IMG/VR virus record: IMGVR_UViG_3300025108_000105
Coordinates: 1-45,390 of that record
Source of the DNA: a virus
Direction: 5' to 3' (one strand)
Length of the DNA stretch: 45,390 nucleotides
Shown: positions 1 through 43,402 of the stretch, in pieces
Position numbering within the stretch: the stretch's first letter is position 1
Layout of the letters: each line of letters opens with the position of its first letter
Position numbers and translations under genes: made by a program
Notes under the pieces: model-generated
Told to the model about the DNA's origin: nothing
Seen by the model: the letters and a program-made list of their open reading frames with translations, nothing else
The model's database searches: none

Positions 1-127
1 AAGGCTGTACTACAGTAAAGGAGATGTATACTAAGGCACTAGAGATGTACAACGGGGATGCTGATGTTCTCCTAGAGAACGCTAGGCTGTTGTGGTTACG
101 TAGGTATGAAGGTGAAATGTGGGAGCC
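1..127. repeat. 127-bp exact terminal direct repeat (circular assembly overlap), left copy
   Basis: The first 127 bases are identical to the last 127. An exact repeat of 127 nt equals a common maximum assembler k-mer, so this is most simply the overlap left when a circular or circularly permuted genome is written as a line. Position 1 follows position 45263. It lies inside the exonuclease coding sequence, which argues against a natural packaging terminus here, though a true short terminal repeat cannot be excluded from sequence alone. Confidence 0.93.
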
Positions 128-137
128 TCCAGTATGA
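1..137 (+). CDS. 5'-3' exonuclease, C-terminal fragment (continues from the right end)
   Basis: This is the last part of the exonuclease that starts at 44705; the frame enters at base 3 and stops at TGA 135-137. The residues encoded (ending Trp-Glu-Pro-Pro-Val) follow the helix-hairpin-helix region of the protein. Only the final ten bases before and including the stop lie outside the terminal repeat. The stop overlaps the ATG of the Mom-like gene, so the two genes are translationally coupled. It should be annotated once, as a 231-residue protein crossing the origin of numbering. Confidence 0.9.
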   Translation, partial: GCTTVKEMYTKALEMYNGDADVLLENARLLWLRRYEGEMWEPPV

Positions 138-769
138 CAAGTGTAACTTTTGATAACTACTCAGTAAGACCCCTGAAATCTAAGGTAGCCAAAGATTACA
201 TCAGAGAAAACCACTATTCGAGGTCTTGTCACAACGGGCCTTCACCCTGCTACGGTTTGTTTTTAGAGGATCAAGGTGTCTTAATAGGTGCCTTGTGCTT
301 TGCAACCCCTTGCTCTGAAAACGTAAGGTCTAGCGTCTTTGGCCCTAAGTATAAAAACAACGTAACTGAGTTACATAGGTTGTACATAGAAGATGCTCCT
401 CTGGGAGAACCTACACCTAAAGGTACTGAAAGTTGGTTTATCAGCAGATGCTTAAAACGCCTCAAAAAAGACAAGCCGCATATTTGGGCAGTCTTAACAT
501 TTGCTGATAGCACAGAAGGGCATACAGGTGTAATCTACAAAGCAACAAACGCTCTTTTCTGTGGTATGACATCAAAGGCAACTTTCTACCTTGACTTGGA
601 AGGTAGGCTTAGACACCCAAGGCAAAACGGTGTAAATATAAAAAGTGATGTGGCTAAGGAGAGAGGTTGGACGCCCGTAAAAAGGTTTTCAAAAAGCAGG
701 TATCTGTATTTACTACCCGACAGTAAAGGTCACAAGAAGGAGTTAAAGAGGTTGTGTAAGTATGAGTAA
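134..769 (+). CDS. Mom-like DNA adenine modification protein (GNAT-fold acyltransferase family)
   Basis: 211 residues. The protein matches the pattern of the phage Mu Mom family (adenine methylcarbamoylation), which modifies adenines in phage DNA so that host restriction enzymes cannot cut it. Visible family landmarks are NHYSRSC near residue 27, CYGLF followed by LIGALCF, ELHRLYIED, ESWFISRCLKRLKK, and the hallmark FADSTEGHTGVIYKATN followed by a Tyr and small Gly patch. These correspond to the acyl-CoA-type fold of Mom. I chose ATG 134, which overlaps the exonuclease stop in an ATGA junction; a GTG 15 bases upstream is less likely. It ends inside the endonuclease I gene. Family membership is by motif recognition, and chemical activity is inferred. 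No Mom-specific regulator such as Com was seen. Confidence 0.78.
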   Translation: MTSVTFDNYSVRPLKSKVAKDYIRENHYSRSCHNGPSPCYGLFLEDQGVLIGALCFATPCSENVRSSVFGPKYKNNVTELHRLYIEDAPLGEPTPKGTESWFISRCLKRLKKDKPHIWAVLTFADSTEGHTGVIYKATNALFCGMTSKATFYLDLEGRLRHPRQNGVNIKSDVAKERGWTPVKRFSKSRYLYLLPDSKGHKKELKRLCKYE

Positions 770-31150: not shown

Positions 31151-31236
31151 GTTATTCCTGTTATTGTAAAAACTCAGGCTGTCAGTCCAGCGGAGGTATC
31201 ATCGACATTTAAGGGTGCCAAACCACCTGAGTAACC
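31151..31236 (-). other. Intergenic hairpin between terminase subunit genes
   Basis: CCTGAGT (31226-31232) and ACTCAGG (31172-31178) can close a large loop; on the minus strand the second arm runs into TTTTTAC. This is a terminator-like or attenuator-like fold with a long (47-nt) loop, placed where lower TerS/TerL ratio control would matter. Weak evidence. Confidence 0.35.
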
Positions 31237-31617
31237 TTATTCCTCTTCAGATTCCTTACCTAGAGCAGCCATAAGGGCATTAACTGCACCCTCATTCTCT
31301 TCCTCTTCAGTACCTACCTCTTGTTCCTGTACATGAGAACTAGGAGACCAATTAGCCCGTGAACGTAAGTACAACTCCTGAGACTTGAAGTCACCATCTA
31401 ATGCTTGGTCAATAACTGTCTTACCAACCTTAGAATCAATCTGGAACTTAACCTCATCCATATCCTCACGATACAACTTATAGAAAGTACTATAAGACTG
31501 AGGGGCATCCTTCATGTGCAATACAGAAGCAAAGATTTGCCTTACGGTAACACCACCCCCGATACCTTCACGTACCTTACGGGCAATGTTTGGGTTCTTA
31601 GGGAGTCTATTTGGCAC
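31237..31617 (-). CDS. terS: Terminase small subunit
   Basis: 126 residues. Helix-turn-helix-like N-terminal half (PNIARKVREGIGGGVTVRQIF, TFYKLYREDMDEV), a helical oligomerisation part (KVGKTVIDQALDGDFKSQELYLRSRANW) and an acidic tail. DALDGDxKS-type motifs are typical of phage small terminases. It is the first gene of the leftward structural operon, with a long leader (about 300 nt) back to the 62-nt promoter repeat. Confidence 0.85.
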   Translation of the reverse strand: MPNRLPKNPNIARKVREGIGGGVTVRQIFASVLHMKDAPQSYSTFYKLYREDMDEVKFQIDSKVGKTVIDQALDGDFKSQELYLRSRANWSPSSHVQEQEVGTEEEENEGAVNALMAALGKESEEE

Positions 31618-31850
31618 TAGGAATCTACCTTTGTCTCAATATATTGTACGAAGCTGTAGTTATATTAACCACAACACTATAGTTACCCCACAACTCATAA
31701 CTTAATTGTATATGGAAGTAGGGTTCCCTCTTGGGGAGGAAATTCTTATGGGATTATTATTAAGGAGGGGATTATTATTATACCACACCTAATAAGTATT
31801 CTTAGGGGTCGCTAGGAATCTCCTCTAGGACCACACCATGAATCACATTG

Positions 31851-31869
31851 GTATAACTTAAGTATAACT
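31851..31869 (-). repeat. CTTAAG palindrome, terminase leader copy
   Basis: ATAACTTAAGTATAAC (31853-31868) lies 60 nt downstream of the minus-strand 62-nt promoter. The same 16 bases recur at 39586-39601, downstream of the plus-strand promoter. The core ACTTAAGT is a perfect palindrome, suggesting a dimeric protein site in both leaders. Confidence 0.65.
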
Positions 31870-31930
31870 TACTTTACGTAAGAATTTATATTTAATGGTT
31901 AATTATTATAGAATATAAAACTATTGTTGA

Positions 31931-31992
31931 TTCTTATGTATAACTTAAGTATCCTATACTATTATATATCTGGGGTTTCAGGCTACGTCAAA
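31931..31992 (-). promoter_or_regulatory. Conserved 62-nt promoter, terminase/structural operon copy
   Basis: On the minus strand: TTGACG (-35, 31986-31991), 17-nt spacer containing TGAAACCCCAGA, TATATA (-10, 31963-31968), then TACTTAAGTTATACATAAG near the start of transcription. It matches the copy at 39479-39540 at 54 of 62 positions without gaps. It points toward terS, 314 nt away, so it probably drives the leftward structural operon. Confidence 0.8.
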
Positions 31993-32602
31993 CAGTTTCT
32001 TCTCTAGTGCGTCATTTTGTAGCGATATTATTCTATACTGTGACATAAAGAACACACATAGAGGTATTTTCCTTTTGTTTTTTATTTCTGGTGGTCATTG
32101 TCCGTAAAGAACTCACGCTTCATATGTGATTCTTGTGGTGGTTCATATGAGATCATACGTCCCTTACGTCACCATGTAGGGTGTGGTGTCTAAAGGACAC
32201 ATAAGGGTATTAACCCCCGCGAATGACGTTACGTCACTTACCAAAGTATTTCTTTTCTTTTGGATTCATAGGTGGGAACCCCTACCCCAAAACGAATCAC
32301 CCTAGAATCCCTAGGGACCCTAATGTCAATAGCTAATGCGCCCCAGATGGAAATTAATTCTATGGTGTGGCATAAATGCACTAGTGTAGCACACATGAAA
32401 CAAACCCAAGGATTCCAATAGGATAACGCTTGACTCTAAAGAAAAACCTTGCGCTAGGAGAGGCGATTCGCAACACATATATATCGTTACAATATAACAC
32501 CTCGCCATGTATTGCCCAAGATATCCAAACGGATTCCCAATGTAGACTCATGCTTTCATTGTGGAATATCCATACGCTCACTTGATATAAGGACCGTCAG
32601 AT

Positions 32603-32653
32603 AGCCCATTGTAACGCTAGGCTATGGTAGTGACCTAACGCTACTTATGGGCT
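32603..32653 (-). terminator. Possible terminator of the Gp88-like cluster
   Basis: AGCCCAT (32603-32609) pairs with ATGGGCT (32647-32653) downstream of the last gene of the small leftward cluster; the loop holds a direct repeat of TAACGCTA. There is no T-run, so termination is uncertain. Confidence 0.35.
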
Positions 32654-32670
32654 TGTATGGGCTTCATATG

Positions 32671-33402
32671 TTAAGCAAAGTCTACAACGAATCCGCTTGT
32701 GTCTTTCTTTGCTTTACCTTTGGCGTATAGCGCCACCACATGTCCGCCCTTTGGGTCCAGAATACGTAGATCGTCCGAGTCGCCATTGACCATAGGGAGT
32801 CCCGACCATGTCTTTGCATAGTTAACCGCAGCACGAAAGACTACCGCGACATTCATTCCCTTAGATATAGCCGTTTGCATCATGGCGGCATACTTAGGCG
32901 ATGCATTAGAATAAGACCACGTAAGATGATAATTATTAAAAGATGATACGTCCCTATTGGCGATTTTTGTATAATCATAGAAAGCCACGTTTGGGTGTCG
33001 CTCAAATACTGTTTTGCCGTCGCTATCTTTGATCAATTCGAAGCGGATGTCTGTTGTGCCGTTCAATCGCACTACGGGTTGAATCCCGCGCTTGGCACAA
33101 TAGTTGGACAGTTTTGTGATATCCGTATCTAATTGAGCCATGAAAGATTCACGATTGCTGTAGAACAATTTAGCCTTTCGTTCACGGGCAGATTGCACAC
33201 AATTCATTGCACCACGTCCCGCTGTATTGAGGCAAGCTTTAATGCATCCCGCTTGTTCTGCCATAGCGCATGAATTGAATGTTTTGTTTCCTACGGATAC
33301 TTTCCAAGGTGTCATGTATACAATGCCTGTTAGATATTCTGATCCATCACCCTTAACAGTCTTTGCGTTGGTTCCTACGCCTAGTATTTTATAGTTGGAC
33401 AT
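32671..33402 (-). CDS. Gp88-like (DUF7227-type) protein of unknown function
   Basis: 243 residues. LTGIVYMTPWKVS, SCAMAEQAGCIKACLNTAGRG, ARERKAKLFYSNRESFMAQL and VVRLNGTTDIRFELI match a family spread through phages, related to mycobacteriophage gene 88, whose function is unknown. Cys45, Cys53, Cys57 and Cys68 could bind a metal or Fe-S cluster. I chose ATG 33402 because AAGGGG lies at proper distance and the shared 16-base junction ends exactly there; a frame extension of 19 residues upstream is rejected. It is the last gene of the small leftward cluster. Confidence 0.72.
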   Translation of the reverse strand: MSNYKILGVGTNAKTVKGDGSEYLTGIVYMTPWKVSVGNKTFNSCAMAEQAGCIKACLNTAGRGAMNCVQSARERKAKLFYSNRESFMAQLDTDITKLSNYCAKRGIQPVVRLNGTTDIRFELIKDSDGKTVFERHPNVAFYDYTKIANRDVSSFNNYHLTWSYSNASPKYAAMMQTAISKGMNVAVVFRAAVNYAKTWSGLPMVNGDSDDLRILDPKGGHVVALYAKGKAKKDTSGFVVDFA

Positions 33403-33413
33403 ATCAAGACCCC

Positions 33414-33644
33414 TTATACTTTTGTAAATGTTTCTGTGGCTTTGCGAGTGTCGCGGCATACGTGGATTTGTGACCTATACATACCTGACGGTAAATCATG
33501 AGGCGTCTTTTTCCAGAATAGCGCATTGTCGCTTGTGTTCAAAAACTTGTGCATGTCCTCCGCATGTTTAAACCTTCGGAACTGATAACGATTAGACATC
33601 ATCTGACCGGCTTTACGTGGCATTTCTTTTTTGATTGTGGGCAT
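33414..33644 (-). CDS. Small basic protein, 76 aa
   Basis: Begins MPTIKKEMPRKAGQMMSNRY, rich in Lys/Arg. The core FKHAEDMHKFLNTSDNALFWKK followed by LPSGMYRSQIHVCRD is compact, with one Cys and one Trp. No family known to me. It starts at the third copy of the AAGGAATC junction and ends 11 bases before the Gp88-like gene. Confidence 0.65.
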   Translation of the reverse strand: MPTIKKEMPRKAGQMMSNRYQFRRFKHAEDMHKFLNTSDNALFWKKTPHDLPSGMYRSQIHVCRDTRKATETFTKV

Positions 33645-33658
33645 ATCGGGATTCCTTA

Positions 33659-33829
33659 TTATCTAGCTTGCGTGTTCAAAATAACAAATTCGGCGTCGGA
33701 TTTATTCTTATTCAATTCAAGAGCTTTTTGCGCTTGATCTAGAGTCAACAAAGGCAAGCCTTGAATTTCATTGAATTGACCTTTTGAGCCGTTCGGACGT
33801 GTTGCGATAGTAAAGATTTGACGATTCAT
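33659..33829 (-). CDS. Small protein, 56 aa
   Basis: Begins MNRQIFTIATRPNGSKGQFN; the first half is likely beta, the second a helix (LTLDQAQKALELNKNKSDAEF). The start follows one base after the TAA of the upstream gene, whose last three codons (Lys-Glu-Ser) double as its ribosome site. Function unknown. Confidence 0.65.
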   Translation of the reverse strand: MNRQIFTIATRPNGSKGQFNEIQGLPLLTLDQAQKALELNKNKSDAEFVILNTQAR

Positions 33830-33830
33830 C

Positions 33831-34004
33831 TTAAGATTCCTTGCGTGTTAAGTATGTGGCACCATTGGAGTCACGTTTTAAAGTAAATTTTGAGGTGGTG
33901 ATATCTTCAGGTTTTGCGGCAATATACTTTTGAATCCTGCGTTGGTGCCACAATCCCATAATGTAATTAACTAAATCGCGTTCAATTTGATCTGTGCTTT
34001 TCAT
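33831..34004 (-). CDS. Small protein ending Lys-Glu-Ser, 57 aa
   Basis: Begins MKSTDQIERDLVNYIMGLWH; helical first half with basic RRIQKY, then a beta-like tail (SKFTLKRDSNGATYLTRKES). ATG 34004 is chosen because AAGGAATC precedes it at the right distance; an extension of 20 residues upstream is not supported. The final codons AAG GAA TCT TAA form the ribosome site of the next gene. Confidence 0.65.
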   Translation of the reverse strand: MKSTDQIERDLVNYIMGLWHQRRIQKYIAAKPEDITTSKFTLKRDSNGATYLTRKES

Positions 34005-34005
34005 A

Positions 34006-34242
34006 TTAAGATTCCTTATCAGTGTTGATATTATCCATTTCCTGCAAACATGTTCGCAAAGCAATGTTTTGTTGCATGTCCAAATCGGGATGGAACTCTT
34101 TTATCCTCTTGCTCAATGTGTTCGAAGCCCTAGTAACAGCTCTTTCAGTGTATGCATTGCTGTAATCCTCGGCATTTTTGTCATTCGCTCTAACTGTGCT
34201 GCGATAAGCTGCTATCACTTTTGGGTGGATATTTTGAAACAT
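34006..34242 (-). CDS. Small helical protein ending Lys-Glu-Ser, 78 aa
   Basis: Begins MFQNIHPKVIAAYRSTVRAN and is largely helical (AYTERAVTRASNTLSKRIKEF). First gene of the leftward cluster. ATG 34242 has GGGAAAG eight bases upstream; a TTG 42 bases upstream is a less likely start. It ends with the same Lys-Glu-Ser-stop junction as its neighbour. No family recognised. Confidence 0.6.
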   Translation of the reverse strand: MFQNIHPKVIAAYRSTVRANDKNAEDYSNAYTERAVTRASNTLSKRIKEFHPDLDMQQNIALRTCLQEMDNINTDKES

Positions 34243-34667
34243 TTTAACTTTCCCAATTGATTGACTCGCGTGATTGCAAGCCAATGAAAGTGGAAAGTTA
34301 AACAGGTCGCGGCGGCATTACATCCAAACCGTGACACTTGACAGGCCCGTTAGACCCGTTCCCCCTTTCCCTATATGGGCGGCGGCATAGGGAATCAATA
34401 TCGGACCTTATGCACTATTGCAAGAGGTTATTTCATAAAGTTCAAAATGATCTGGAGTCAGGTATCTGAAAAACATCTCGCGGCACATATAAAGGAATCG
34501 GGCGCGCGCGGTTACATAAATACAAAAGATTCGTCAATAGCATCAAACTGGCGATTTAAGCCCCATAGAACACCCTTTAAGTTTTAGCGTCCCGTATATC
34601 AAAAAAGTGATTCGGCGCGTTCTAATCCGTCAACCCCCTATATTTGCATATTAGTCTATTTTTAGGG

Positions 34668-34696
34668 TTGAACCTACTTGGCGAATCATGTTATTC
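34668..34696 (+). promoter_or_regulatory. Candidate promoter with GAATC in spacer
   Basis: TTGAAC (34668-34673), 17-nt spacer, TTATTC (34691-34696). GAATC (34683-34687) lies three bases before the -10 box, as in the downstream early promoters. No gene follows directly, so it may make a leader or regulatory RNA. Confidence 0.45.
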
Positions 34697-34827
34697 TATA
34701 CGTGAGCCGAGGTTTATATTCCTTTAAGTGTTAGTGTTGGCGGATTCCGACTCTATAGTTTAACGATTAAACTAGTTGGAACGAATCATCAACAAAAAAT
34801 CAGACTAAAAAATAAAATGTCAACCCC

Positions 34828-34857
34828 TTGACTTAACCTGATTCGCTCTGGTACTAT
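34828..34857 (+). promoter_or_regulatory. Strong sigma70-like promoter, rightward
   Basis: TTGACT (34828-34833), 18-nt spacer holding GATTC (34840-34844), TACTAT (34852-34857). It points toward the iterons and the early genes. Confidence 0.65.
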
Positions 34858-34900
34858 AGAGGTTCTGTGACTCGTATCAAAAGCGAATCAAAAGATTGCA

Positions 34901-34929
34901 ATAGTAAAGATTTGATTCGCATGAGTCAA
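34901..34929 (-). promoter_or_regulatory. Strong sigma70-like promoter, leftward
   Basis: On the minus strand TTGACT (34924-34929), 17-nt spacer with GAATC, TACTAT (34901-34906). It is the best leftward promoter for the Gp88-like cluster, though about 660 nt from its first gene. Confidence 0.65.
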
Positions 34930-34968
34930 CAGTTAATTAAAGGGTCTAGGCATTGAAACAATTATCAC

Positions 34969-35050
34969 GAATCAGTTACTTAATTGAAACAATAGGGAGT
35001 CAACAGTTGACACAAATATCGTTACTTTTGTTACTGATTCGTAACAATTC
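34969..35050. promoter_or_regulatory. Divergent promoter pair sharing a GTCAACAGTTGAC palindrome
   Basis: The palindrome (34999-35011) provides back-to-back -35 boxes. Each side has a 17-nt spacer and a matching downstream element: GTTACT then GATTCG on the plus strand (35030-35041), AGTAAC then TGATTCG on the minus strand (34968-34980). Both start regions share ACTGATTCGT. The -10 boxes are weak, suggesting activation. Confidence 0.55.
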
Positions 35051-35053
35051 ATG

Positions 35054-35116
35054 ATGTAAGAATCGTTCACAATTTGAGTCAATAGGGTTGACAAGTATTG
35101 TGAACGATTATTGCGA
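35054..35116. promoter_or_regulatory. Divergent promoters with 13-bp operator repeats
   Basis: AATCGTTCACAAT (35061-35073) and its exact inverse ATTGTGAACGATT (35097-35109) each lie at the same place in the 17-nt spacer of oppositely directed promoters: minus strand TTGACT/TTACAT (35082-35054) and plus strand TTGACA/TTGCGA (35088-35116). The placement suggests one regulator binds each spacer. Confidence 0.6.
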
Positions 35117-35169
35117 TTCTGTAACAAATTGTGATGATAACGGTAACATTCAGATTCAAGAATGTAAGA

Positions 35170-35364
35170 CCCCACCGAGGGAATTAGAGACACCCCTACG
35201 AGGGAATTAGAGACACCCCACCGAGGGAATTAGAGACACCCCTACGAGGGAATTAGAGATACCCCTACGAGGGAATTAGAGATACCCCTACGAGGGAATT
35301 TAGGGTACGAGGGAATTTAGGGTACACCCCTACAAGGGAATTTAGGGTACGAGGGAATTAGAAT
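35170..35364 (+). repeat. Nine-copy iteron array, core GAGGGAATTWRRG
   Basis: Cores begin at 35177, 35200, 35223, 35246, 35269, 35292, 35309, 35334 and 35351. The first six are spaced exactly 23 bp (unit TACGAGGGAATTAGAGACACCCC with few changes); the last three are shortened or spread (17, 25, 17 bp). Such iterons usually bind a replication or regulatory protein. It lies just before the first early promoter. Confidence 0.85.
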
Positions 35365-35401
35365 AAGAATCAAAAGGTTAACATACAAAATAAAATAGTG
35401 T

Positions 35402-35431
35402 TTGACACTACCACCCGAATCACTGTAGAGT
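35402..35431 (+). promoter_or_regulatory. Early promoter 1 (GAATC in spacer)
   Basis: TTGACA, 18-nt spacer, TAGAGT; GAATC at 35417-35421, four bases before the -10 box. Drives the 101-aa gene 41 bases downstream. Confidence 0.75.
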
Positions 35432-35471
35432 AATCTCAAGTCAGATGGATATAACCTAGAAAGGATTTCAA

Positions 35472-35777
35472 ATGTACGCTCCATACCATAACGGCGATCT
35501 TAAAGGCAACCCACCGATCCTTGGTGCATTTAATGAGAAAGGCACTGGCAACCGCTTTGAGTTTACCACCAGATCAGAGGAGGAAATGGACACCTTTGCA
35601 CCTGACTACCCACACAAGATTTTTGTTGGTCCTTGGGGTTTTGTAGAGACACGCGCTGCATTAGTCCTTAAGACTGTCGCTTATGTGGTTATAGATGAGA
35701 ATGCAGAGGGAAACCCTGTCGTTGAGAAGTGGTCAATAAACAACTGGGTTGAGTATTCGGTGGTTGACAAACAATAA
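35472..35777 (+). CDS. Early protein, 101 aa
   Basis: Begins MYAPYHNGDLKGNPPILGAF. Acidic, beta-rich, with YPHKIFVGPWGFVETRAAL and YVVIDENAEGNPVVEKW. No family recognised. Ribosome site AAAGGA before ATG. First of a series of small early genes that may serve host takeover. The -35 box of the next promoter lies inside its last codons. Confidence 0.7.
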   Translation: MYAPYHNGDLKGNPPILGAFNEKGTGNRFEFTTRSEEEMDTFAPDYPHKIFVGPWGFVETRAALVLKTVAYVVIDENAEGNPVVEKWSINNWVEYSVVDKQ

Positions 35778-35807
35778 GAATCACTGTAGATTACCTATAG
35801 TTAAACA
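35764..35807 (+). promoter_or_regulatory. Early promoter 2 with triplicated 35-nt leader
   Basis: TTGACA (35764-35769), 17-nt spacer, TAGATT (35787-35792); GAATC 35778-35782. Bases 35773-35807 recur identically at 36036-36070 and 36531-36565. Confidence 0.8.
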
Positions 35808-35821
35808 GAAGGGGTTGAGAA

Positions 35822-36037
35822 ATGAAAAACGTCATAGAGGTTAAGACAACACAGACCCGTGATAGTTGGGGTAACAAAGGTGTCTGCACTTATAAGCGTA
35901 TGTCTGAGTGGTTCGATAACGGGGGGCAGTGGATTGATAGTTTGGCTGATGTGGTCGTAAGTGATACATCCACAGGTCATGGTTGGGGTGGTCGTATGAG
36001 CAAAACAGATTGGGATAAAATAAAGGTTGACACCTAA
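35822..36037 (+). CDS. Early protein, 71 aa
   Basis: Begins MKNVIEVKTTQTRDSWGNKG; middle MSEWFDNGGQWIDSLADVVV; ends with KTDWDKIKVDT. No family recognised. Own promoter, own ribosome site (AAGGGG upstream). The next promoter's -35 overlaps its final codons. Confidence 0.7.
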   Translation: MKNVIEVKTTQTRDSWGNKGVCTYKRMSEWFDNGGQWIDSLADVVVSDTSTGHGWGGRMSKTDWDKIKVDT

Positions 36038-36070
36038 TAAGAATCACTGTAGATTACCTATAGTTAAACA
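36027..36070 (+). promoter_or_regulatory. Early promoter 3 with triplicated 35-nt leader
   Basis: TTGACA (36027-36032), 17-nt spacer, TAGATT (36050-36055); GAATC 36041-36045. Leader identical to promoters 2 and 4 over 36036-36070. Confidence 0.8.
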
Positions 36071-36092
36071 GACACAAATAAAGGATACTATC

Positions 36093-36290
36093 ATGTATTA
36101 CCTAGAAACAGACGTAACAGGCGATCACATTCGGATCGAGTGGAATGGAAGCGCCACATTTAACTTCCAGACACCTATCGGTGGTGAATGGGTGGACTAC
36201 CACTGTTTCACCTGCTATGAGTACGATAACGAATTGCAAGCGATGGAGTATGCGCTTGAGGTGTTGCTTGAGTTAGAAGGGGAATACTGA
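36093..36290 (+). CDS. Early acidic protein, 65 aa
   Basis: Begins MYYLETDVTGDHIRIEWNGS; contains a Cys pair (HCFTCYEY) and an acidic helix (NELQAMEYALEVLLELEGE). ATG 36093 is used because AAAGGA precedes it; upstream in-frame codons lie in the promoter leader. No family recognised. Confidence 0.65.
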   Translation: MYYLETDVTGDHIRIEWNGSATFNFQTPIGGEWVDYHCFTCYEYDNELQAMEYALEVLLELEGEY

Positions 36291-36291
36291 T

Positions 36292-36525
36292 ATGACAAAT
36301 ACTTATGATTTTGTAGCTTGGGGTGAAGTCTTGATCCGTAACGCTAAGACTGGTAAGGAAGATAAGGTAGAGCTTTCGAACATACCTATGACTTGGAACC
36401 CAGAGGAAATTAGCAGGGACGCAGCGGTTTATTGGGCTGTTGTTGATACGGTAGGGTCTCAGTTTGGTAACGATGTTGATTGGTTCTCTGTGGTATCCTA
36501 CGGGTCTAGCTCAAGTAACAGTTGA
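36292..36525 (+). CDS. Early protein, 77 aa
   Basis: Begins MTNTYDFVAWGEVLIRNAKT; likely beta-rich, ending in a Ser-rich tail. It starts one base after the upstream stop and probably shares promoter 3, the one two-gene unit at this end of the array. Function unknown. Confidence 0.65.
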   Translation: MTNTYDFVAWGEVLIRNAKTGKEDKVELSNIPMTWNPEEISRDAAVYWAVVDTVGSQFGNDVDWFSVVSYGSSSSNS

Positions 36526-36565
36526 CAAACAATAAGAATCACTGTAGATTACCTATAGTTAAACA
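36522..36565 (+). promoter_or_regulatory. Early promoter 4 with triplicated 35-nt leader
   Basis: TTGACA (36522-36527), 17-nt spacer, TAGATT (36545-36550); GAATC 36536-36540. The -35 box overlaps the stop of the upstream gene. Confidence 0.8.
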
Positions 36566-36581
36566 AACAAGGAATTAAGAC

Positions 36582-36830
36582 ATGCCAGTAGGTATCAGAA
36601 TCTTCCAAGAACGCGCTCAGTCAACATACACAGCACCTATTCACACTGTTTATGGCGATTGTATGTACAGTGCTTTAAAGGACGCAGTTCGCTGGTGTGT
36701 TCATCATCACCTAGCTGCACGTCCTGAAGATCACGCACCTGACAAGACCTTGTACCTATACGACTGCTTAGGTGGTCTAAGGGTAGAGGTTCGTCGTAGG
36801 GATCGTGAGATAACTCTTGTTAAAACTTAG
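36582..36830 (+). CDS. Early protein, 82 aa
   Basis: Begins MPVGIRIFQERAQSTYTAPI; basic and His-rich middle (WCVHHHLAARPEDHAPD), C-terminal GGLRVEVRRRDREITLV. Three Cys with two His near them could bind metal. Own promoter; AAGGAATT upstream of ATG. No family recognised. Confidence 0.65.
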   Translation: MPVGIRIFQERAQSTYTAPIHTVYGDCMYSALKDAVRWCVHHHLAARPEDHAPDKTLYLYDCLGGLRVEVRRRDREITLVKT

Positions 36831-36833
36831 TAG

Positions 36834-36862
36834 TTGACATAGGATGCGAATCACTGCATAAA
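36834..36862 (+). promoter_or_regulatory. Early promoter 5 (GAATC in spacer)
   Basis: TTGACA (36834-36839), 17-nt spacer, CATAAA (36857-36862); GAATC 36848-36852. The -10 box is poor, so it may need an activator. Confidence 0.6.
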
Positions 36863-36885
36863 GGTTTCATACAAGGAGAGAACAT

Positions 36886-36978
36886 ATGCCAGAGCAAGAT
36901 GATCCATGCGATGATTGGTCAGGTCAAGATATACCTACCACAAACAAAGATAAGAAAGATAAGGAACCTAAGAAATGA
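36886..36978 (+). CDS. Very small charged protein, 30 aa
   Basis: Begins MPEQDDPCDDWSGQDIPTTN; an acidic first half and a lysine-rich end (KDKKDKEPKK). Good AAGGAGAG ribosome site and ATGA overlap with the next gene support translation. Function unknown; it may mainly couple translation to its neighbour. Confidence 0.5.
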   Translation: MPEQDDPCDDWSGQDIPTTNKDKKDKEPKK

Positions 36979-37187
36979 CTGAACAAGAATATACCCGTCA
37001 CGATCTTCTTAAGGTCATAGCAGACACACACCCCGATTGTTACGCAAGTCAGTCTGGTAACCTAAAAGCTGCATTGGCAAGTGTACTGATCCAAGTGGAG
37101 GTACATGACCCTGAACTGTTCAAGAAAATCATGAACTTTGAAATGGGATGTCAGAAGGCGGGGTTCACTAAGTTTACTGACTATTGA
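36975..37187 (+). CDS. Early protein, 70 aa
   Basis: Begins MTEQEYTRHDLLKVIADTHP; helical (LKAALASVLIQVEVHDPELFKKIMN). No family recognised. ATGA-coupled to the 30-aa gene; the next promoter overlaps its stop. Confidence 0.65.
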   Translation: MTEQEYTRHDLLKVIADTHPDCYASQSGNLKAALASVLIQVEVHDPELFKKIMNFEMGCQKAGFTKFTDY

Positions 37188-37212
37188 CATTACCTTACGA
37201 ATCACCTATACT
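37184..37212 (+). promoter_or_regulatory. Early promoter 6 (GAATC in spacer)
   Basis: TTGACA (37184-37189), 17-nt spacer, TATACT (37207-37212), close to consensus; GAATC 37199-37203, three bases before the -10. Confidence 0.8.
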
Positions 37213-37237
37213 GGGTACATAAACAAGGAGAGACACA

Positions 37238-37444
37238 ATGTTCGAAGACATGATAAATGATGTACTAGAGACAGTATTCCCTGAGAGCTTCCCAACTGAG
37301 ACTGATCTTGATGATTTTTGGGATTGGGCCTATGACAATATGAGTGATTGGTCTGAAGGTGTTCGTGCTGAGGCAATGGTAGAACACTACATAGATGAGG
37401 TACAATATGTACCCTTAGGTAAGTCTGATGAAGAGGAAAGGTAA
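37238..37444 (+). CDS. Highly acidic early protein, 68 aa (DNA-mimic candidate)
   Basis: Begins MFEDMINDVLETVFPESFPT. It has 21 Asp/Glu and only three Lys/Arg in 68 residues, net charge about -18, with regularly spaced acid pairs and Trp. Such small early acidic proteins in phages (T7 Ocr is the model) often mimic DNA to block restriction or other DNA-binding enzymes; that is inference. Strong promoter and AAGGAGAG site. The next gene, strongly basic, starts inside it. Confidence 0.7.
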   Translation: MFEDMINDVLETVFPESFPTETDLDDFWDWAYDNMSDWSEGVRAEAMVEHYIDEVQYVPLGKSDEEER

Positions 37445-37586
37445 GGTTATAAATCCAAGAGACCCCTCAGCGAAACTTAGGTCTGAGGGCGCCCTAAGGA
37501 CTAGAGTAGTGGCTGATAAACGTAAGAAGGTTGGCCGAAAGGTTAAGCACAAAAGAGGAAATCAAGATGTTCGTAGTAGTAAATAA
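37428..37586 (+). CDS. Highly basic early protein, 52 aa
   Basis: Begins MKRKGKVINPRDPSAKLRSE. It has 20 Lys/Arg and four Asp/Glu, net about +16, so it probably binds nucleic acid or its acidic neighbour. It overlaps the acidic gene by 17 bases and the next gene by 20. The start has no strong ribosome site, so translation is probably coupled. No family recognised. Confidence 0.55.
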   Translation: MKRKGKVINPRDPSAKLRSEGALRTRVVADKRKKVGRKVKHKRGNQDVRSSK

Positions 37587-37698
37587 AAAATCAGGTATAC
37601 CAGTGGCTTATTCTAACAGCTTTAGAGAAGCCTTGCATTACCTAAATGTTTACAATCAAGACTCCCCTCATGAATTGAAGGAAGTCGTTCAGGAGTGA
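37567..37698 (+). CDS. Small protein, 43 aa
   Basis: Begins MFVVVNKKSGIPVAYSNSFR, then a helix (EALHYLNVYN) and an acidic end. AGAGGAAA lies upstream at good distance. It overlaps the basic gene in a different frame. No family recognised. Confidence 0.55.
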   Translation: MFVVVNKKSGIPVAYSNSFREALHYLNVYNQDSPHELKEVVQE

Positions 37699-37734
37699 GC
37701 TATAGGAATCTAAAATGAGGCATAGGAATAACAC

Positions 37735-37763
37735 TTGACCACATAAACGAATCATGCTACAAC
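37735..37763 (+). promoter_or_regulatory. Early promoter 7 (GAATC in spacer)
   Basis: TTGACC (37735-37740), 17-nt spacer, TACAAC (37758-37763); GAATC 37749-37753. Last of the series; it precedes the multi-gene unit that ends with the sigma-like gene. Confidence 0.7.
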
Positions 37764-37790
37764 TAAAGAACACAAGCAAGGAGATAAAAA

Positions 37791-38063
37791 ATGCTTACTA
37801 AAGAAACAGTACGTGACGCCTTAGAGGTTATCGGTAACAAGTTCTTCACTGTGTCATTCGTAGCTAAGGATGGTGGTGTACGGGTTTACAATGGTCGTAT
37901 CAACATCAAGAAGGGTCTAAAGAACAACGAGCGTTCCGAGATTGTACGTAAGGCTTTCCAAGCTAACGGTGTGGTACCTATCAAGATTGATGGTGAACAG
38001 TTCAAGGCATTCAAACTGGACAACGTATTGTCTATCAAGAGCATGGGACAGGAGTGGGCATAG
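37791..38063 (+). CDS. Sm/SH3-like small protein (DUF2693/WYL_2-like)
   Basis: 90 residues. The pattern FFTVSFVAKDGGVRVYNGRINIKKGL followed by FKAFKLDNVLSIK resembles a phage family with an SH3/Sm-like beta barrel (DUF2693), often next to replication genes; function unknown. AAGGAGAT ribosome site. Family assignment is moderate. Confidence 0.6.
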   Translation: MLTKETVRDALEVIGNKFFTVSFVAKDGGVRVYNGRINIKKGLKNNERSEIVRKAFQANGVVPIKIDGEQFKAFKLDNVLSIKSMGQEWA

Positions 38064-38458
38064 TGACACCACTTATGTGCCTCGCAGTAGCAGTATTCTT
38101 CGAGACTAGAGGAGAACCCTACCAAGGGAAGGAAGCAGTAGCTAACGTAATAATAAACAGGGTAGAGGACAGCAGGTATCCTAATGACGTATGTTCTGTG
38201 GTGTGGGAACCTAAAGCATTTAGCTATACACATGATGGCCTACACGATGACCCTAAGCGTCACACAGGGTATCAGGACAAGATTGCGTGGGTAGATAGCC
38301 AAGAGGTAGCTAAAGAGGCTCTACAAGGCAATACTCTAGGTATGACAAGCACACACTACCATGCAAAAAATGTCTTGCCATTCTGGGCGAATCATTATAG
38401 TCTTGATGGACAGGTTGGCAACCACTTGTTCTACACTAATGAAACACCATATAAATAG
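38063..38458 (+). CDS. SleB/CwlJ-like cell wall hydrolase
   Basis: 131 residues. CLAVAVFFETRGEPYQGKEAVANVIINRV and CSVVWEPKAFSY are the signature of the Hydrolase_2 (SleB) family, which cleaves peptidoglycan; the Glu of FETRGE is the likely catalytic acid. Start GTG 38063 overlaps the upstream TAG and has AGGAG eight bases before it; GTG 38054 lies inside that ribosome site and is rejected. No signal peptide. It is a second lysin far from the lysis cassette, in the early region. Confidence 0.85.
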   Translation: MTPLMCLAVAVFFETRGEPYQGKEAVANVIINRVEDSRYPNDVCSVVWEPKAFSYTHDGLHDDPKRHTGYQDKIAWVDSQEVAKEALQGNTLGMTSTHYHAKNVLPFWANHYSLDGQVGNHLFYTNETPYK

Positions 38459-38642: not shown

Positions 38643-38879
38643 ATGAACATTTATTACATGGGTGAGAACCTAACTAACTCTAAGTTCCCTATCAAAGTGT
38701 GGAACGATCAGATACCTCGCAACGTAGGTGCTACGAAATGCCCTTCAGGGGAATATGAGAGTAAGACAACAGGTTGGGGCGAACCTGAGAAGGGTGGCGT
38801 AGGTGCAGATGCAGGGTTGCGCAGCGTTAACAACACAGACGACACACGTACAGACAGTTTCCCAAAGGAAGGCAAATAA
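38643..38879 (+). CDS. Hypothetical protein, 78 aa
   Basis: Begins MNIYYMGENLTNSKFPIKVW; the second half is Gly-rich and probably disordered (SKTTGWGEPEKGGVGADAGL). AGGAGA upstream. It ends one base before the sigma-like gene. No family recognised. Confidence 0.6.
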   Translation: MNIYYMGENLTNSKFPIKVWNDQIPRNVGATKCPSGEYESKTTGWGEPEKGGVGADAGLRSVNNTDDTRTDSFPKEGK

Positions 38880-38880
38880 C

Positions 38881-39468
38881 ATGACACCTGAGTTTATCAC
38901 TACACTCTCTAAGAAGAGCGCCAGCAAGTACCGTAACACAAGCCACCATGACGATCTGATCTCCGAAGGGGTTATGGCTGCATACGAAGAACTAAACGCC
39001 AACCCTCAAGCACCTGAGAACCGTATCTATCAGGTCATCAGCACGGCACAGTGGAAGTTCCTGAATGTAGACTGTTTACCTGTTACTATACCCTTTGAGC
39101 TTGTGCGTGTAGCTAAAGGTCTAGGTTCACCAGAGGACAAACGCGGTTACTCAGATGAAACTATTGAGTGGGCTAAGTTGATCTGTGAGGCACCACAACT
39201 GGACTCCAGCTTGCACGACGAAGACAACGAGTCAGACCAAGCAGAGTCTTATGAGCGTCAGGATTTGGTTAAAGATGTATGGGATTCTGCTAAAGAGTGT
39301 CTTACAGAAGAAGAGTACGACCTATTCCATATGTACTTCGATCAAGGCCATAACGGAGAGGTCTTAGGGGCCGATTTGAATGTGACCCGACAGGCTATCA
39401 ACGTAAGAATTAAAAAGTCTTGTGAAAAGGTTCGCAAGCACGTTGTGAATAAAAAGTGGGAGTTGTAA
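38881..39468 (+). CDS. RNA polymerase sigma factor-like protein
   Basis: 195 residues with both DNA-contacting parts of a sigma70-family protein. Region 2-like: NTSHHDDLISEGVMAAYEEL (about 20-40) and a helix with aromatic residues after it. Region 4-like helix-turn-helix: LTEEEYDLFHMYF, EVLGADLNVTRQAINVRI (about 140-185). It would redirect host RNA polymerase to phage promoters. It ends ten bases before the 62-nt promoter repeat that heads the replication operon, of which a second copy heads the structural operon. Function is inferred from pattern and context. Confidence 0.75.
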   Translation: MTPEFITTLSKKSASKYRNTSHHDDLISEGVMAAYEELNANPQAPENRIYQVISTAQWKFLNVDCLPVTIPFELVRVAKGLGSPEDKRGYSDETIEWAKLICEAPQLDSSLHDEDNESDQAESYERQDLVKDVWDSAKECLTEEEYDLFHMYFDQGHNGEVLGADLNVTRQAINVRIKKSCEKVRKHVVNKKWEL

Positions 39469-39630: not shown

Positions 39631-41217
39631 ATGAACAAATCAGGTCTACCTTGTCCCTTTTCTGGTTGTGGTTCATCTGATGCGTTCAGTTGGCACACAG
39701 AGAAACGAGTGGGTAAATGCTTTAGTTGTGACGAGAGTTACCCACAGAAGGGTATGGTTTTGGAGAGTTGGGTTGCTGATGAGTACCCCTTAAAGGATAA
39801 ATACAATATGGATGATATGGTACTTAAGAGTAAACGTAATGTACCTGACAATACACCTTCTGATGGTTTGGTTTATAAAGAGTTCAGAGGTATCTCACCA
39901 GCAACAATGGAGTTCTTTGGCGTAAAGACTAACGATCTAAAGCAGGTATACCCCTATCCTAATGGAACTAGCAAGGTTCGTATGCTACCTAAAGATTTTA
40001 GCCATAACTCTGGATTTAAGGCAGATAGTCTATTTGGTAGTAACCTTTTCCCTGTTGGTTGCGCCCGTAAGGTTACTGTGTGTGAAGGTGAACTAGATGC
40101 CATGAGCGCCCATCAGATGCTCTCTGGGGGTGGTTATATTAACCCTGTGGTATCTCTACCATCAGCAAGCCCTAACGGTAAACTATGGGGGAATGCGTCA
40201 GCCTACTTAGATAGCTTCGACCAAATCATTCTGTCGGTTGATAATGATGATGCTGGACGTGAGGTAGCTGAGGTTCTGTTTGATCTGTTCCCTGATAAAG
40301 TACACATCATGGATCATGGTATTCACAAAGACGCTAACGACTTCCTGTTGGCTAAGGCAACAAAGGCATACAAGAGTGCTTGGTGGTCAGCTAAGAAGTA
40401 TAGTCCAGCAGGGTTTACAGCGGGTGCAGAGGATTGGTTAAAGGCTGTTCATGAGGAGACACCTTACGAGTACACACCTACGTTCTCTGAGGCTCTAAAT
40501 GTTGTCACAAGAGGTTGGGTAAAAGGGGGTATCACAGTAGTAAAGGCACCAGCAGGTACAGGTAAGACATCTGTGTTCAGAGCAGCACAACACGATCTTG
40601 TAGTAAAGAAGAACATGCGTGTAGGTGTACTTCATATGGAGGAACTAAAGAGTACAACAGCGCGGGGTATGGCAACGTATCACCTTGGTAAGAATGTAAA
40701 CACACAGGAAGACCAAGACTTTTACGATGTAAGTAACGAATCGCTTGACATTGCTATCTCTGAGGTAGTAGAAGACAACAGGTTCGTTGCTTTTGAGGTT
40801 AACCCTCAAGACCCTATCGAAGATACGCTAAAGCAAGCTAAGTACGCAGTAACAGTTTACGGTTGTGACTACCTGTTTATCGACCACTTGCAACGACTAG
40901 CGTACCTATCAGGTGTTGATGGTGCTACTGCTGCCCTGACGGAATTAGGTGTCCGATTGGTTGAGTTCTCTAAGCGGCGTAACGTGGGAATTATATGTAT
41001 CTCTCACGTAAACGAAACAGGTCATACTAAGTATGCCAAGAGTGTAGAAGAGGAAGCTATTATGCTAATTGAACTTAAGCGAGACATGAAGGCTGACGGG
41101 GATGACGCTAATTATACTGATGTAGAGGTCACTAAGAACCGTCCGTATTCACGTCTGGGTAGTGCTGGTCGTTTGCACTATAACCCTGAGACCACTATTG
41201 TAAAGGGAGTAGTTTAG
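39631..41217 (+). CDS. T7-like DNA primase-helicase
   Basis: 528 residues. Zinc finger: Cys8, Cys13, Cys29, Cys32. TOPRIM primase: EGELDA (152-157) and DNDDAGR (204-210). RecA-like helicase: Walker A APAGTGKT (306-313), Walker B YLFIDH (Asp418), and ICISHVNE with NRPYSRLGSAGRLHY near the end. It makes primers and unwinds DNA at the fork. The zinc finger has four residues between its first Cys pair, longer than the usual two. It is the first gene of the replication operon. Confidence 0.95.
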   Translation: MNKSGLPCPFSGCGSSDAFSWHTEKRVGKCFSCDESYPQKGMVLESWVADEYPLKDKYNMDDMVLKSKRNVPDNTPSDGLVYKEFRGISPATMEFFGVKTNDLKQVYPYPNGTSKVRMLPKDFSHNSGFKADSLFGSNLFPVGCARKVTVCEGELDAMSAHQMLSGGGYINPVVSLPSASPNGKLWGNASAYLDSFDQIILSVDNDDAGREVAEVLFDLFPDKVHIMDHGIHKDANDFLLAKATKAYKSAWWSAKKYSPAGFTAGAEDWLKAVHEETPYEYTPTFSEALNVVTRGWVKGGITVVKAPAGTGKTSVFRAAQHDLVVKKNMRVGVLHMEELKSTTARGMATYHLGKNVNTQEDQDFYDVSNESLDIAISEVVEDNRFVAFEVNPQDPIEDTLKQAKYAVTVYGCDYLFIDHLQRLAYLSGVDGATAALTELGVRLVEFSKRRNVGIICISHVNETGHTKYAKSVEEEAIMLIELKRDMKADGDDANYTDVEVTKNRPYSRLGSAGRLHYNPETTIVKGVV

Positions 41218-41219
41218 GT

Positions 41220-41384
41220 ATGACTTTTGAAGAGTGGTGGGACAAGCCTGTACAAGGTTCTGACTTCAGTAAAGATCAGATGTCTAAGGATGTTAAGATG
41301 TCAGTGTATCAAGAGTTAGGACGAGATTTTGACCTTAAGATAGCTATGAAGGATGCGTGGGAAAATGCTAGAGACAGTATTTGA
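41220..41384 (+). CDS. Small protein between helicase and polymerase genes, 54 aa
   Basis: Begins MTFEEWWDKPVQGSDFSKDQ, helical and acidic. It starts three bases after the helicase stop and overlaps the exonuclease gene by 20 bases. The MTFEEWW start is a pattern I associate with small phage proteins of unknown function. Ribosome site GGGAG upstream. Confidence 0.65.
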   Translation: MTFEEWWDKPVQGSDFSKDQMSKDVKMSVYQELGRDFDLKIAMKDAWENARDSI

Positions 41385-41811
41385 CATAGAAACTAATGGA
41401 CTCCTAGACATAGTTAACAGGGTACACGTAGTAAGTTACAAAGATGAAACAATGCGTGAGCCTACCTCAATATATGACTACAGGGGAATAAAGGAGTTCT
41501 TCAAGGAGGATCGAATATTTATAGGCCACCACATCATAGGGTATGACTTTCCAGCACTATCTAAGGTGTTGCAAGTGTCTAAACCTAAGCGTATAGTGGA
41601 TACCTACCCTTTGTCAGTTACTCTGATGCCTAACAGGAAAAGTTACGGTCTAGAAGGTTTTGGGGTTGACTACGGTGTACCTAAGCCTGTAGTAAAGGAC
41701 TGGGAGAACCTGACAAGAGAAGACTACACGTTCCGTTGCGAGAGTGACGTTAAGATCAACTGGCGTCTGTGGGAAGACTTGAGACGCAAACTAGGGGAGT
41801 TGTATGGATGA
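41365..41811 (+). CDS. DNA polymerase 3'-5' exonuclease (separate proofreading domain)
   Basis: 148 residues equivalent to the N-terminal exonuclease domain of T7 gp5. Exo I motif FDIETNG with Asp7 and Glu9; exo II region IFIGHHIIGYDFPAL; exo III region YTFRCESDVKINWRLWEDL. It would remove mismatched bases during synthesis by the polymerase encoded 166 bp downstream. ATG 41365 puts exo I at the expected position; ATG 41353 is the alternative. It ends in an ATGA overlap with the 56-aa gene. Confidence 0.88.
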   Translation: MLETVFDIETNGLLDIVNRVHVVSYKDETMREPTSIYDYRGIKEFFKEDRIFIGHHIIGYDFPALSKVLQVSKPKRIVDTYPLSVTLMPNRKSYGLEGFGVDYGVPKPVVKDWENLTREDYTFRCESDVKINWRLWEDLRRKLGELYG

Positions 41812-41978
41812 CTGTTAAGGAGTTAATCGAAGAACTACAGAAGTTTCCTGAAGACCTAGAGGTTAAGACTTACAATGGTCGGACCGCAGATCGTTTTAAC
41901 TGGCCTATCTTGGAGGTCTATTTAGAGAAAGGTTGGGAAAAGGGCGAAGATGTGGTTTTTATTGAAGGCAACCTTTAA
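41808..41978 (+). CDS. Small protein inserted between exonuclease and polymerase genes, 56 aa
   Basis: Begins MTVKELIEELQKFPEDLEVK and ends EDVVFIEGNL. This is a common small phage fold (helix, then beta strands; 'ELIEELKKFPEDLEV') of unknown function. It overlaps both neighbours (ATGA at its start, one base at its end), so three genes replace what is one polymerase gene in T7. Confidence 0.75.
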   Translation: MTVKELIEELQKFPEDLEVKTYNGRTADRFNWPILEVYLEKGWEKGEDVVFIEGNL

Positions 41979-43402
41979 TGAAACCTTTGCACGATGACGC
42001 ATGGCGCTACATAGAGTATCTTAACTTCAAGATGCAATGCGCTGCCGATCAGGAGAGACTAAAGTGGAAGGTTGATGTACCTAAAGCTAAGGCTCTTCTG
42101 GAGACACTAGAAACTATTGAACAGGAGAAACACAAAGAACTGGTTAAGGCTATGCCTAAGAAGGTCATCTTCAAGGCAGTCAATCGCCCCGCGGAGGAAG
42201 GCAAGTGGAATAAAGATGGGAGGATGTCTGCAAAATGGGTTAAGTTTGAGGAAAAGCGTAAAGCTAACTGCCAGCCAGAAGAAGTAAAGAGCTTTAATGT
42301 GATCGACGGTTATGATGATGGGAACCCAGCTAGTCACGTACAGGTCAAGGATTGGTTGTATAGTTTAGGTTGGCAGCCGTGTACCTTTGACTACAAAAGG
42401 GACAACGCAACAGGTGAAACTAGAACTATCCCACAAGTACGGGAAGAAGGAGAATTGACTTCTAGTGTTGTGCTTCTAGCTGACGTAGACCCTGCTGTTA
42501 AGGTTCTTGAGGGACTGTCTATAGTACAGCACCGTAAGAGTGTAGTTAAGGGTTTCCTAGCTGCTCTGGATGATGAAGGTTATGTGTTCGCAGGGGTACA
42601 TGGTCTAACTAACACACTACGTTTTAAGCATGTTAAGCCACTAGCTAACATCCCTAGCGTAGATAAAGCATATGGAGAGGAGATACGAGGACTACTTATT
42701 GCACCAGAAGGTTATGTACTATGCGGGGCTGACATGGATAGCTTGGAACAAAACACCAAGATGCATTATATGACGCCATATGACCCTGAGTATGTAGCTA
42801 CACAGCAGACGGAAGACTTCGATGCACACCTAGACCTAGCTAAGTTCGCTGGTGTAGTAACACAAGAAGAAATAGATCAACACAACAAGACGGGTAGTCT
42901 TAAGTCAGTAAGAAAGGCATACAAAGTAACGAACTACTCAGCAACGTATGGGATTAAACCTTTAGGTCTATCTCGTAGGGGTGGCTTCTCTGTTAGTGAA
43001 GCAGAGAAACTACTAGAATCGTTCTGGAAACGTAACTGGTCTCTTGAGGCTATCGCTAAGGGTACTAAAACTAAGAAGACTAGAGATGGTCAGATGTGGT
43101 TGTATAACCCTGTGTCTGGTTTTTGGTACTCCCTGCGACATGACAAGGATAAGTTCTCTACGCTTAACCAAGGTACAGGAGTTTATTGCTTCGATACATG
43201 GTTAGGGTATTGCATTGATCTAGGTTTAGATGCTATAGGTCAGTTTCACGACGAAGCTATTTTCTTGGTTAAGTCTGGGGATGAACCTAAGACATCTGAT
43301 GCAGTTTACTCTGCTATGGACAAGACCAACGAGAAGATAGATTTAAACGTAACACTATCAACTACGCCTGAGTTTGGCGATAACTATTCAGAGATACATT
43401 AA
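41978..43402 (+). CDS. DNA polymerase family A, polymerase domain only
   Basis: 474 residues. Motif A GADMDSLE with catalytic Asp252; motif B Arg312-x3-Lys316-x3-Tyr320 (RKAYKVTNY); motif C FHDE with Asp425. Tyr320 corresponds to T7 Tyr526 / E. coli Phe762. The exonuclease domain is absent and encoded separately upstream. The ~200-residue N-terminal part corresponds to the thumb and the region that in T7 binds thioredoxin, although no clear thioredoxin-binding loop was identified. One-base overlap with the upstream gene. Confidence 0.93.
   Translation: MKPLHDDAWRYIEYLNFKMQCAADQERLKWKVDVPKAKALLETLETIEQEKHKELVKAMPKKVIFKAVNRPAEEGKWNKDGRMSAKWVKFEEKRKANCQPEEVKSFNVIDGYDDGNPASHVQVKDWLYSLGWQPCTFDYKRDNATGETRTIPQVREEGELTSSVVLLADVDPAVKVLEGLSIVQHRKSVVKGFLAALDDEGYVFAGVHGLTNTLRFKHVKPLANIPSVDKAYGEEIRGLLIAPEGYVLCGADMDSLEQNTKMHYMTPYDPEYVATQQTEDFDAHLDLAKFAGVVTQEEIDQHNKTGSLKSVRKAYKVTNYSATYGIKPLGLSRRGGFSVSEAEKLLESFWKRNWSLEAIAKGTKTKKTRDGQMWLYNPVSGFWYSLRHDKDKFSTLNQGTGVYCFDTWLGYCIDLGLDAIGQFHDEAIFLVKSGDEPKTSDAVYSAMDKTNEKIDLNVTLSTTPEFGDNYSEIH

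Follow-up and report, generated by a model that had tools for sequence, protein, structure and literature searches.

Predicted viral sigma70 promoters with a GAATC element in fixed register suggest borrowing of a host GcrA/CcrM methylation switch

Organization of the locus

The subject of this article is IMG/VR virus record IMGVR_UViG_3300025108_000105, a stretch of DNA of 45,390 bases from a marine virus that will be called the window, and in particular a group of seven predicted promoters, each of which carries the pentamer GAATC just upstream of its -10 box. GAATC is a form of GANTC, the site methylated by CcrM in alphaproteobacteria, and GcrA is the sigma70 cofactor that acts at such methylated promoters. 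The late arm of the window lies on the minus strand, and the early arm, on the plus strand, starts at 35.4 kb with these promoters, so that the genes following them are taken as early from their position. Between the two arms lies a segment dense in GANTC, and replication genes are found on the early side (Table 1). Among isolates, Roseobacter phage CRP-6 comes closest (terminase 60% identical in amino acids); its host, Rhodobacteraceae bacterium FZCC0042, is a marine RCA strain.

Table 1. Coordinates of the features discussed, in the window unless a CRP-6 record (L039) is named
Feature	Position	Strand	GAATC	-10 box	Spacer (nt)	Remarks
Mom-family protein	119-769					PF25680, E=2.5e-31
GANTC-dense segment	31250-35371					51 sites, between late and early arms
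Candidate eighth promoter, TTGAAC	34668-34697	+	34683-34687	TATTCT, 34692-34697		found in a relaxed scan
Iteron-like direct repeats	35169-35359	+				23-nt period, upstream of first early promoter
Promoter, TTGACA	35402-35431	+	35417-35421	TAGAGT, 35426-35431	18	predicted to drive open reading frame (ORF) 35472-35777
Promoter, TTGACA	35764-35792	+	35778-35782	TAGATT, 35787-35792	17	predicted to drive ORF 35822-36037
Promoter, TTGACA	36027-36055	+	36041-36045	TAGATT, 36050-36055	17	predicted to drive ORF 36093-36290
Promoter, TTGACA	36522-36550	+	36536-36540	TAGATT, 36545-36550	17	predicted to drive ORF 36582-36830
Promoter, TTGACA	36834-36862	+	36848-36852	CATAAA, 36857-36862	17	predicted to drive 30-aa ORF from 36886
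Promoter, TTGACA	37184-37212	+	37199-37203	TATACT, 37207-37212	17	predicted to drive ORF 37238-37444
Promoter, TTGACC	37735-37763	+	37749-37753	TACAAC, 37758-37763	17	predicted to drive ORF 37791-38063
ORF MLTKETVRDALE...	37791-38063	+				phrog_2267 match (unknown function); orthologues used for footprint
Sigma-70 region 4-like ORF	38803-39468					weak PHROG and NCBIfam matches; PF04545 slightly under cut-off
Primase/helicase	39631-41217					replication gene on early-arm side
Polymerase	41353-43402					replication gene
CRP-6 iteron-like array	L039 44769-44876					period 21-23

Seven predicted promoters with one geometry

An earlier sequence-only reading had placed seven promoters here, each made of TTGAC, a spacer of 17-18 nt, and a GAATC that leaves 3-4 nt to the -10 box, and all seven were recovered at the positions it gave. 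GAATC begins 14-15 nt past the first base of the -35 box in every case, and the gap between it and the -10 box is, in order, 4, 4, 4, 4, 4, 3, and 4 nt; thus, all seven combine sigma70 -35 and -10 boxes with a GANTC in or beside the core promoter. For each of them (7/7), a small ORF begins 23-41 nt past the end of the -10 box, at a start codon equipped with a Shine-Dalgarno-like sequence, although their status as promoters is a prediction from these letters.

The comparison of GANTC counts with shuffled sequence, which the same reading had proposed, places the arrangement far above chance in this 2.9 kb: 35301-38200 holds seven instances of TTGAC-N9/10-GANTC, where dinucleotide shuffles average 0.046 and, in 2000 of them, never exceed 1, and the same seven in the whole window compare with 0.74 per shuffle (maximum 4 in 300). 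Since GANTC is depleted in the window overall (128 sites, 169 expected), the seven in-register sites are not due to a general enrichment of this sequence. Over about 40 nt, the promoters at 35764, 36027, and 36522 are nearly the same, which leaves about five of the seven to be counted as independent.

Conservation in relatives and in CRP-6

Relatives of the window were gathered through the primase/helicase protein, hence blind to the promoters, and seven of them (L009, L010, L011, L013, L014, L015, and L016) carry the arrangement with spacers that are mostly different. The most informative position is the gene at 37791, whose orthologues in L009, L010, L011, L013, and L016 are 61-96% identical to that of the window and are all preceded by TTGAC, GAATC, and a -10 box starting with TA, equally placed. 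TTGAC and GAATC were demanded by the search pattern, so the information resides in their presence before each orthologue and in the low identity of the spacer preceding GAATC, which is 24% in pairwise comparison of five distinct sequences. In L014 and L015 the arrangement is absent before this orthologue but found at three other genes, and it is also missing before the distant orthologues of L017 and L027.

CRP-6 has TTGACG-CCCACAAC-GAATC-ACTC-TATACA upstream of gp05, the 33%-identical orthologue of the 37791 gene, with TATACA near L039 946-951. Because this phage was grown on an RCA strain and shares the element at an orthologous gene, the alphaproteobacterial host presumed for the window gains support. 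Held by these diverged relatives and by CRP-6, the arrangement is a conserved element. A second CRP-6 candidate lies at L039 44391 on the minus strand, before gp69, with a weak -35 box (TTGCAA) and with CGAATCG and TTTAAT in register.

Spread and anatomy of the element

The element is present in many unrelated viruses from water samples. When 2.9 million viral contigs were scanned in full with a strict pattern, 150 matches turned up in 118 stretches, as compared with one for the flipped site and none for the scrambled one. With the pattern TTGACA-N8/9-GAATCA-N2/3-TATA, 25 of 120 loci among the matches listed carried at least two promoters, and up to eight, and none of 120 did so with the scrambled element. 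Records hold up to 21 sites, within each record on one strand only. Among them are contigs with T4-like polymerase, RNA ligase, topoisomerase, and UvsW-like genes, and contigs of jumbo size (200-340 kb); the closest relative of the UvsW-like helicase of one record (G014) is that of Sinorhizobium phage Phosso. Many of these contigs are interrelated, and for this reason site counts are not counts of independent events.

The position of the site was measured in 130 TTGACA promoters picked without regard to GANTC: where the spacer holds a GANTC, its first base lies 8 or 9 nt ahead of the -10 box in 54 of 59 cases and elsewhere in five. Across 71 unique sites the preceding base is always A or C, the following base always A or G, and the centre A with one exception; several genomes were retrieved with GAATCA, so that the counts for the centre and for the following base are partly pre-selected, and that for the preceding base is not. 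In a second set, from which the retrieving sites were excluded, each position of the resulting consensus, MGAATCR (complement YGATTCK), holds in 52 of 53 sites. A Shine-Dalgarno sequence with ATG follows within 150 nt at 57 of 67 sites, at a median of 30 nt, compared to 19% of random positions.

The site also relates to the extended -10 motif, TGn, which precedes the -10 box in 3/59 promoters with the site and in 29/77 without it (p=4e-6), and in the second set in 9/53 and 58/144, respectively (p=0.002). Within the family of the window, in which TGn is carried by few promoters, no such trend is seen. As site and TGn can fit together in one promoter, their mutual avoidance suggests substitution, with the site tending to replace the extended -10.

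GANTC clusters and iteron-like repeats

The distribution of GANTC over the genome is itself uneven. Positions 31201-35400 hold 51 sites against 13.7 expected, and the rest of the window 77 against 154; in CRP-6, the 2.5 kb at L039 42433-44886 hold 38 against 7.8, and the remainder 31 against 161. Taken together, the control regions of the two phages are enriched 4-5-fold and the other parts depleted 2-5-fold, and comparable peaks, of 10-12 sites per kb, occur in L010, L013, and L016. In the window and in CRP-6 the dense segment ends, beside the early genes, in iteron-like repeats of 21-23 bp, which are candidates for an origin or a regulatory array. Given that GANTC peaks near the origins of alphaproteobacterial chromosomes (PMC9836097), it is a fair guess that the phage cluster is an origin or another methylation-responsive control region. 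Restriction avoidance could be a cause of the depletion elsewhere, not of the cluster.

Within the dense segments, some GANTCs overlap Shine-Dalgarno-like sequences (AAGGAATC, GGAGTC) before minus-strand starts, at 33650, 33835, and 34010 in the window and at L039 43040-44340.

GcrA genes, methylases, and database searches

A search for the GcrA family (PF07750), with Caulobacter and phiCbK as positive controls, found no such gene in the window or in two sets of records (0/27 and 0/22, fragments included). Methylases are found in some phages with GAATC promoters: G014, G033, G039, and G040 (L627-L630) encode near-identical N6/N4 methylases of 288 aa, whose closest PDB relative is CcrM (6pbd, E=3e-21) and which score far below the NCBIfam cut-off for CcrM (98 vs 830 bits); judging from this resemblance, they could set GANTC methylation. 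As to the window, the Mom family to which one of its proteins belongs modifies adenines and protects DNA, and this member could interact with GANTC methylation. The ORF at 38803-39468 possibly encodes a phage middle or late sigma factor.

Other searches were less instructive. A scan of bacterial genomes with the perfect consensus gave 111 matches, mostly in Firmicutes and about the number expected by chance, and is uninformative on alphaproteobacteria, in which a perfect promoter is rare. No match came from two alphaproteobacterial megaplasmids, and BLAST of whole promoters against phages returned nothing useful. No description of these promoters was found in the literature searched, a search thin on subscription journals.

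Interpretation and alternatives

The activation motif of GcrA in Caulobacter crescentus is YGAKTCK, with TGATTCG as its best form (PMC7987155), and the complement of MGAATCR fits it, which makes host-supplied GcrA on CcrM-methylated sites the best mechanism at hand. At promoters with N6-methyladenine (m6A), GcrA, which binds both methylated DNA and sigma region 2, accelerates isomerisation to the open complex (PMC7403470), and mutation of GANTC cripples most of the GcrA promoters tested (PMC3667746). We consider it fairly probable that the phage sites are host sigma70 promoters with a GcrA-type element, at which the GcrA of the host acts on CcrM-methylated GAATC. The early genes would then be served by host sigma70 promoters in which MGAATCR stands on the non-template strand, a few bases upstream of the -10 box that sigma region 2 contacts. 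CcrM of the infected alphaproteobacterium would methylate the GAATC adenines, and GcrA, sitting on sigma region 2, would engage the methylated site and accelerate formation of the open complex, thereby taking the part that the extended -10 (TGn) plays at other promoters of phages of these kinds. The GcrA/CcrM-style arrangement put forward in the sequence-only reading is supported, beyond what that reading saw, by the conservation of the element, its spread, its fixed register and orientation, and flanks that fit the GcrA motif, all of them properties of the DNA sequence.

Several observations weigh against this interpretation. Among the scanned isolates infecting alphaproteobacteria, CRP-6 is the only one with a clear site: phiCbK, Cr30, phiM12, phiN3, Atu_ph07, Phosso, HMO-2011, R5C, DSS3phi2, and others have none, and the single match in Sphingomonas phage PAU is unconvincing and treated as possible chance. 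A GcrA consensus used as query found a GcrA-like N-terminus encoded in at least 150 viral contigs, and the in-register GAATC is absent from all 80 such loci that were kept (L436-L515). The T4-like contigs have as nearest isolates phages of mixed hosts, at about 50-58% protein identity. From the side of the literature, the orientation of the site has been argued to matter little for GcrA (PMC7987155), and in the phages it is strict; the extended GcrA motif was not found in Brevundimonas; and a scan of phage genomes for GcrA sites saw no asymmetry (PMC9437464). With most alphaproteobacterial isolates and the GcrA-encoding loci devoid of the site, the promoter class is a mark of particular phage lineages, whose hosts perhaps have promoters close to consensus. 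On the matter of orientation, the effects of hemimethylation are strand-specific (PMC3667746), and the strictness seen here would be a new constraint on GcrA promoters.

The alternatives differ in what reads the site and to what effect. Without regard to methylation, MGAATCR might be recognized by a different host factor or serve RNA polymerase itself as a spacer element, the overlap with a CcrM site being incidental. Direct contact by polymerase would equally give a fixed register and orientation by the -10 box and a partial exclusivity with TGn, and the presence of the element in a single isolate among the alphaproteobacterial ones tested would suit such a reading, but the element is exactly GANTC and its flanks match a GcrA motif that was published independently. 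We know of no RNA polymerase contact for MGAATCR, which counts against polymerase as the reader, and on balance we hold methylation-independent recognition to be doubtful, albeit the most serious competitor. GcrA could also act with the opposite sign, as a brake or timer, with GAATC holding the promoters off until a given methylation state is reached, e.g., the hemimethylated one after replication, and so delaying the genes instead of activating them on entry. The strict orientation of the phage site and the strand-dependent difference of GcrA footprints on hemi- and fully methylated ctrA P1 (PMC3667746) are in keeping with this, but it appears unlikely, because the site tends to take the place of TGn, which speaks for activation, and most GcrA promoters tested are crippled by loss of their GANTC (PMC3667746).

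An operator for a repressor or activator encoded by these phages in common is highly improbable. Identical sites before many small genes would also suit an immunity or early-gene regulator, and the window does encode a sigma-70 region 4-like protein, but the site is asymmetric and locked to the register of the -10 box, and the phages with T4-like genes and the family of the window share the element with no known regulator in common. Chance, or the duplication of one cassette, for which three near-copies among the seven promoters might speak, is ruled out by the shuffle, scramble, and flip controls and by the different spacers across phages.

Relation to known systems and significance

Dam methylation controls phage functions, such as the mom promoter of Mu and pac of P1. 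The likeness with the present case is that host adenine methylation steers a phage process through clustered sites; the methylase and the site are different, and the present class spans many early promoters. Among the closest precedents are the GcrA/CcrM promoters of C. crescentus (Fioravanti 2013, PMC3667746), which, like the phage ones, are sigma70 promoters with GANTC near the -35 and -10 boxes and flanks that fit YGAKTCK; others are due to Haakonsen 2015 and Wu 2018, as relayed in PMC7987155 and PMC7403470. Unlike these, the predicted promoters described here belong to phage genes, have one register and one orientation, and occur many times per genome. A link between phages and GcrA exists in the phiCbK-like Caulobacter phages, which encode a GcrA homologue (PMC3556154): phiCbK has the regulator and, in the patterns tested, lacks the promoter class, whereas in the present phages the sites are there and no GcrA was detected. 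A cell-cycle regulator of the host also governs phage promoters in the "lytic deferment" of alphaproteobacterial phages (PMC9437464); there the regulator is CtrA, not GcrA.

What is known of GcrA promoters comes mostly from Caulobacter, and the rules that govern their position and orientation there are unclear. The phages offer well over a hundred natural promoters of one fixed geometry, so that such a rule becomes directly testable. These sequences suggest that the viruses borrow the methylation-dependent cell-cycle switch of their hosts, GcrA/CcrM, to turn on their genes. More tentatively, and as a possibility that we rate below the mechanism itself, a widespread class of promoters in aquatic phages (roseophage-like, T4-like, and jumbo-size) may tie early transcription to host GANTC m6A and GcrA; infection would then be gated by the cell-cycle and methylation state of the host, phage genomes would be read differently before and after replication, and the CcrM-like methylase of some phages could set the mark. 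If the promoters are GcrA-dependent, early genes in several phage lineages would have a host epigenetic cofactor as their standard activator, and the element would serve as a sequence marker linking metagenomic phages to hosts that possess GcrA and CcrM.

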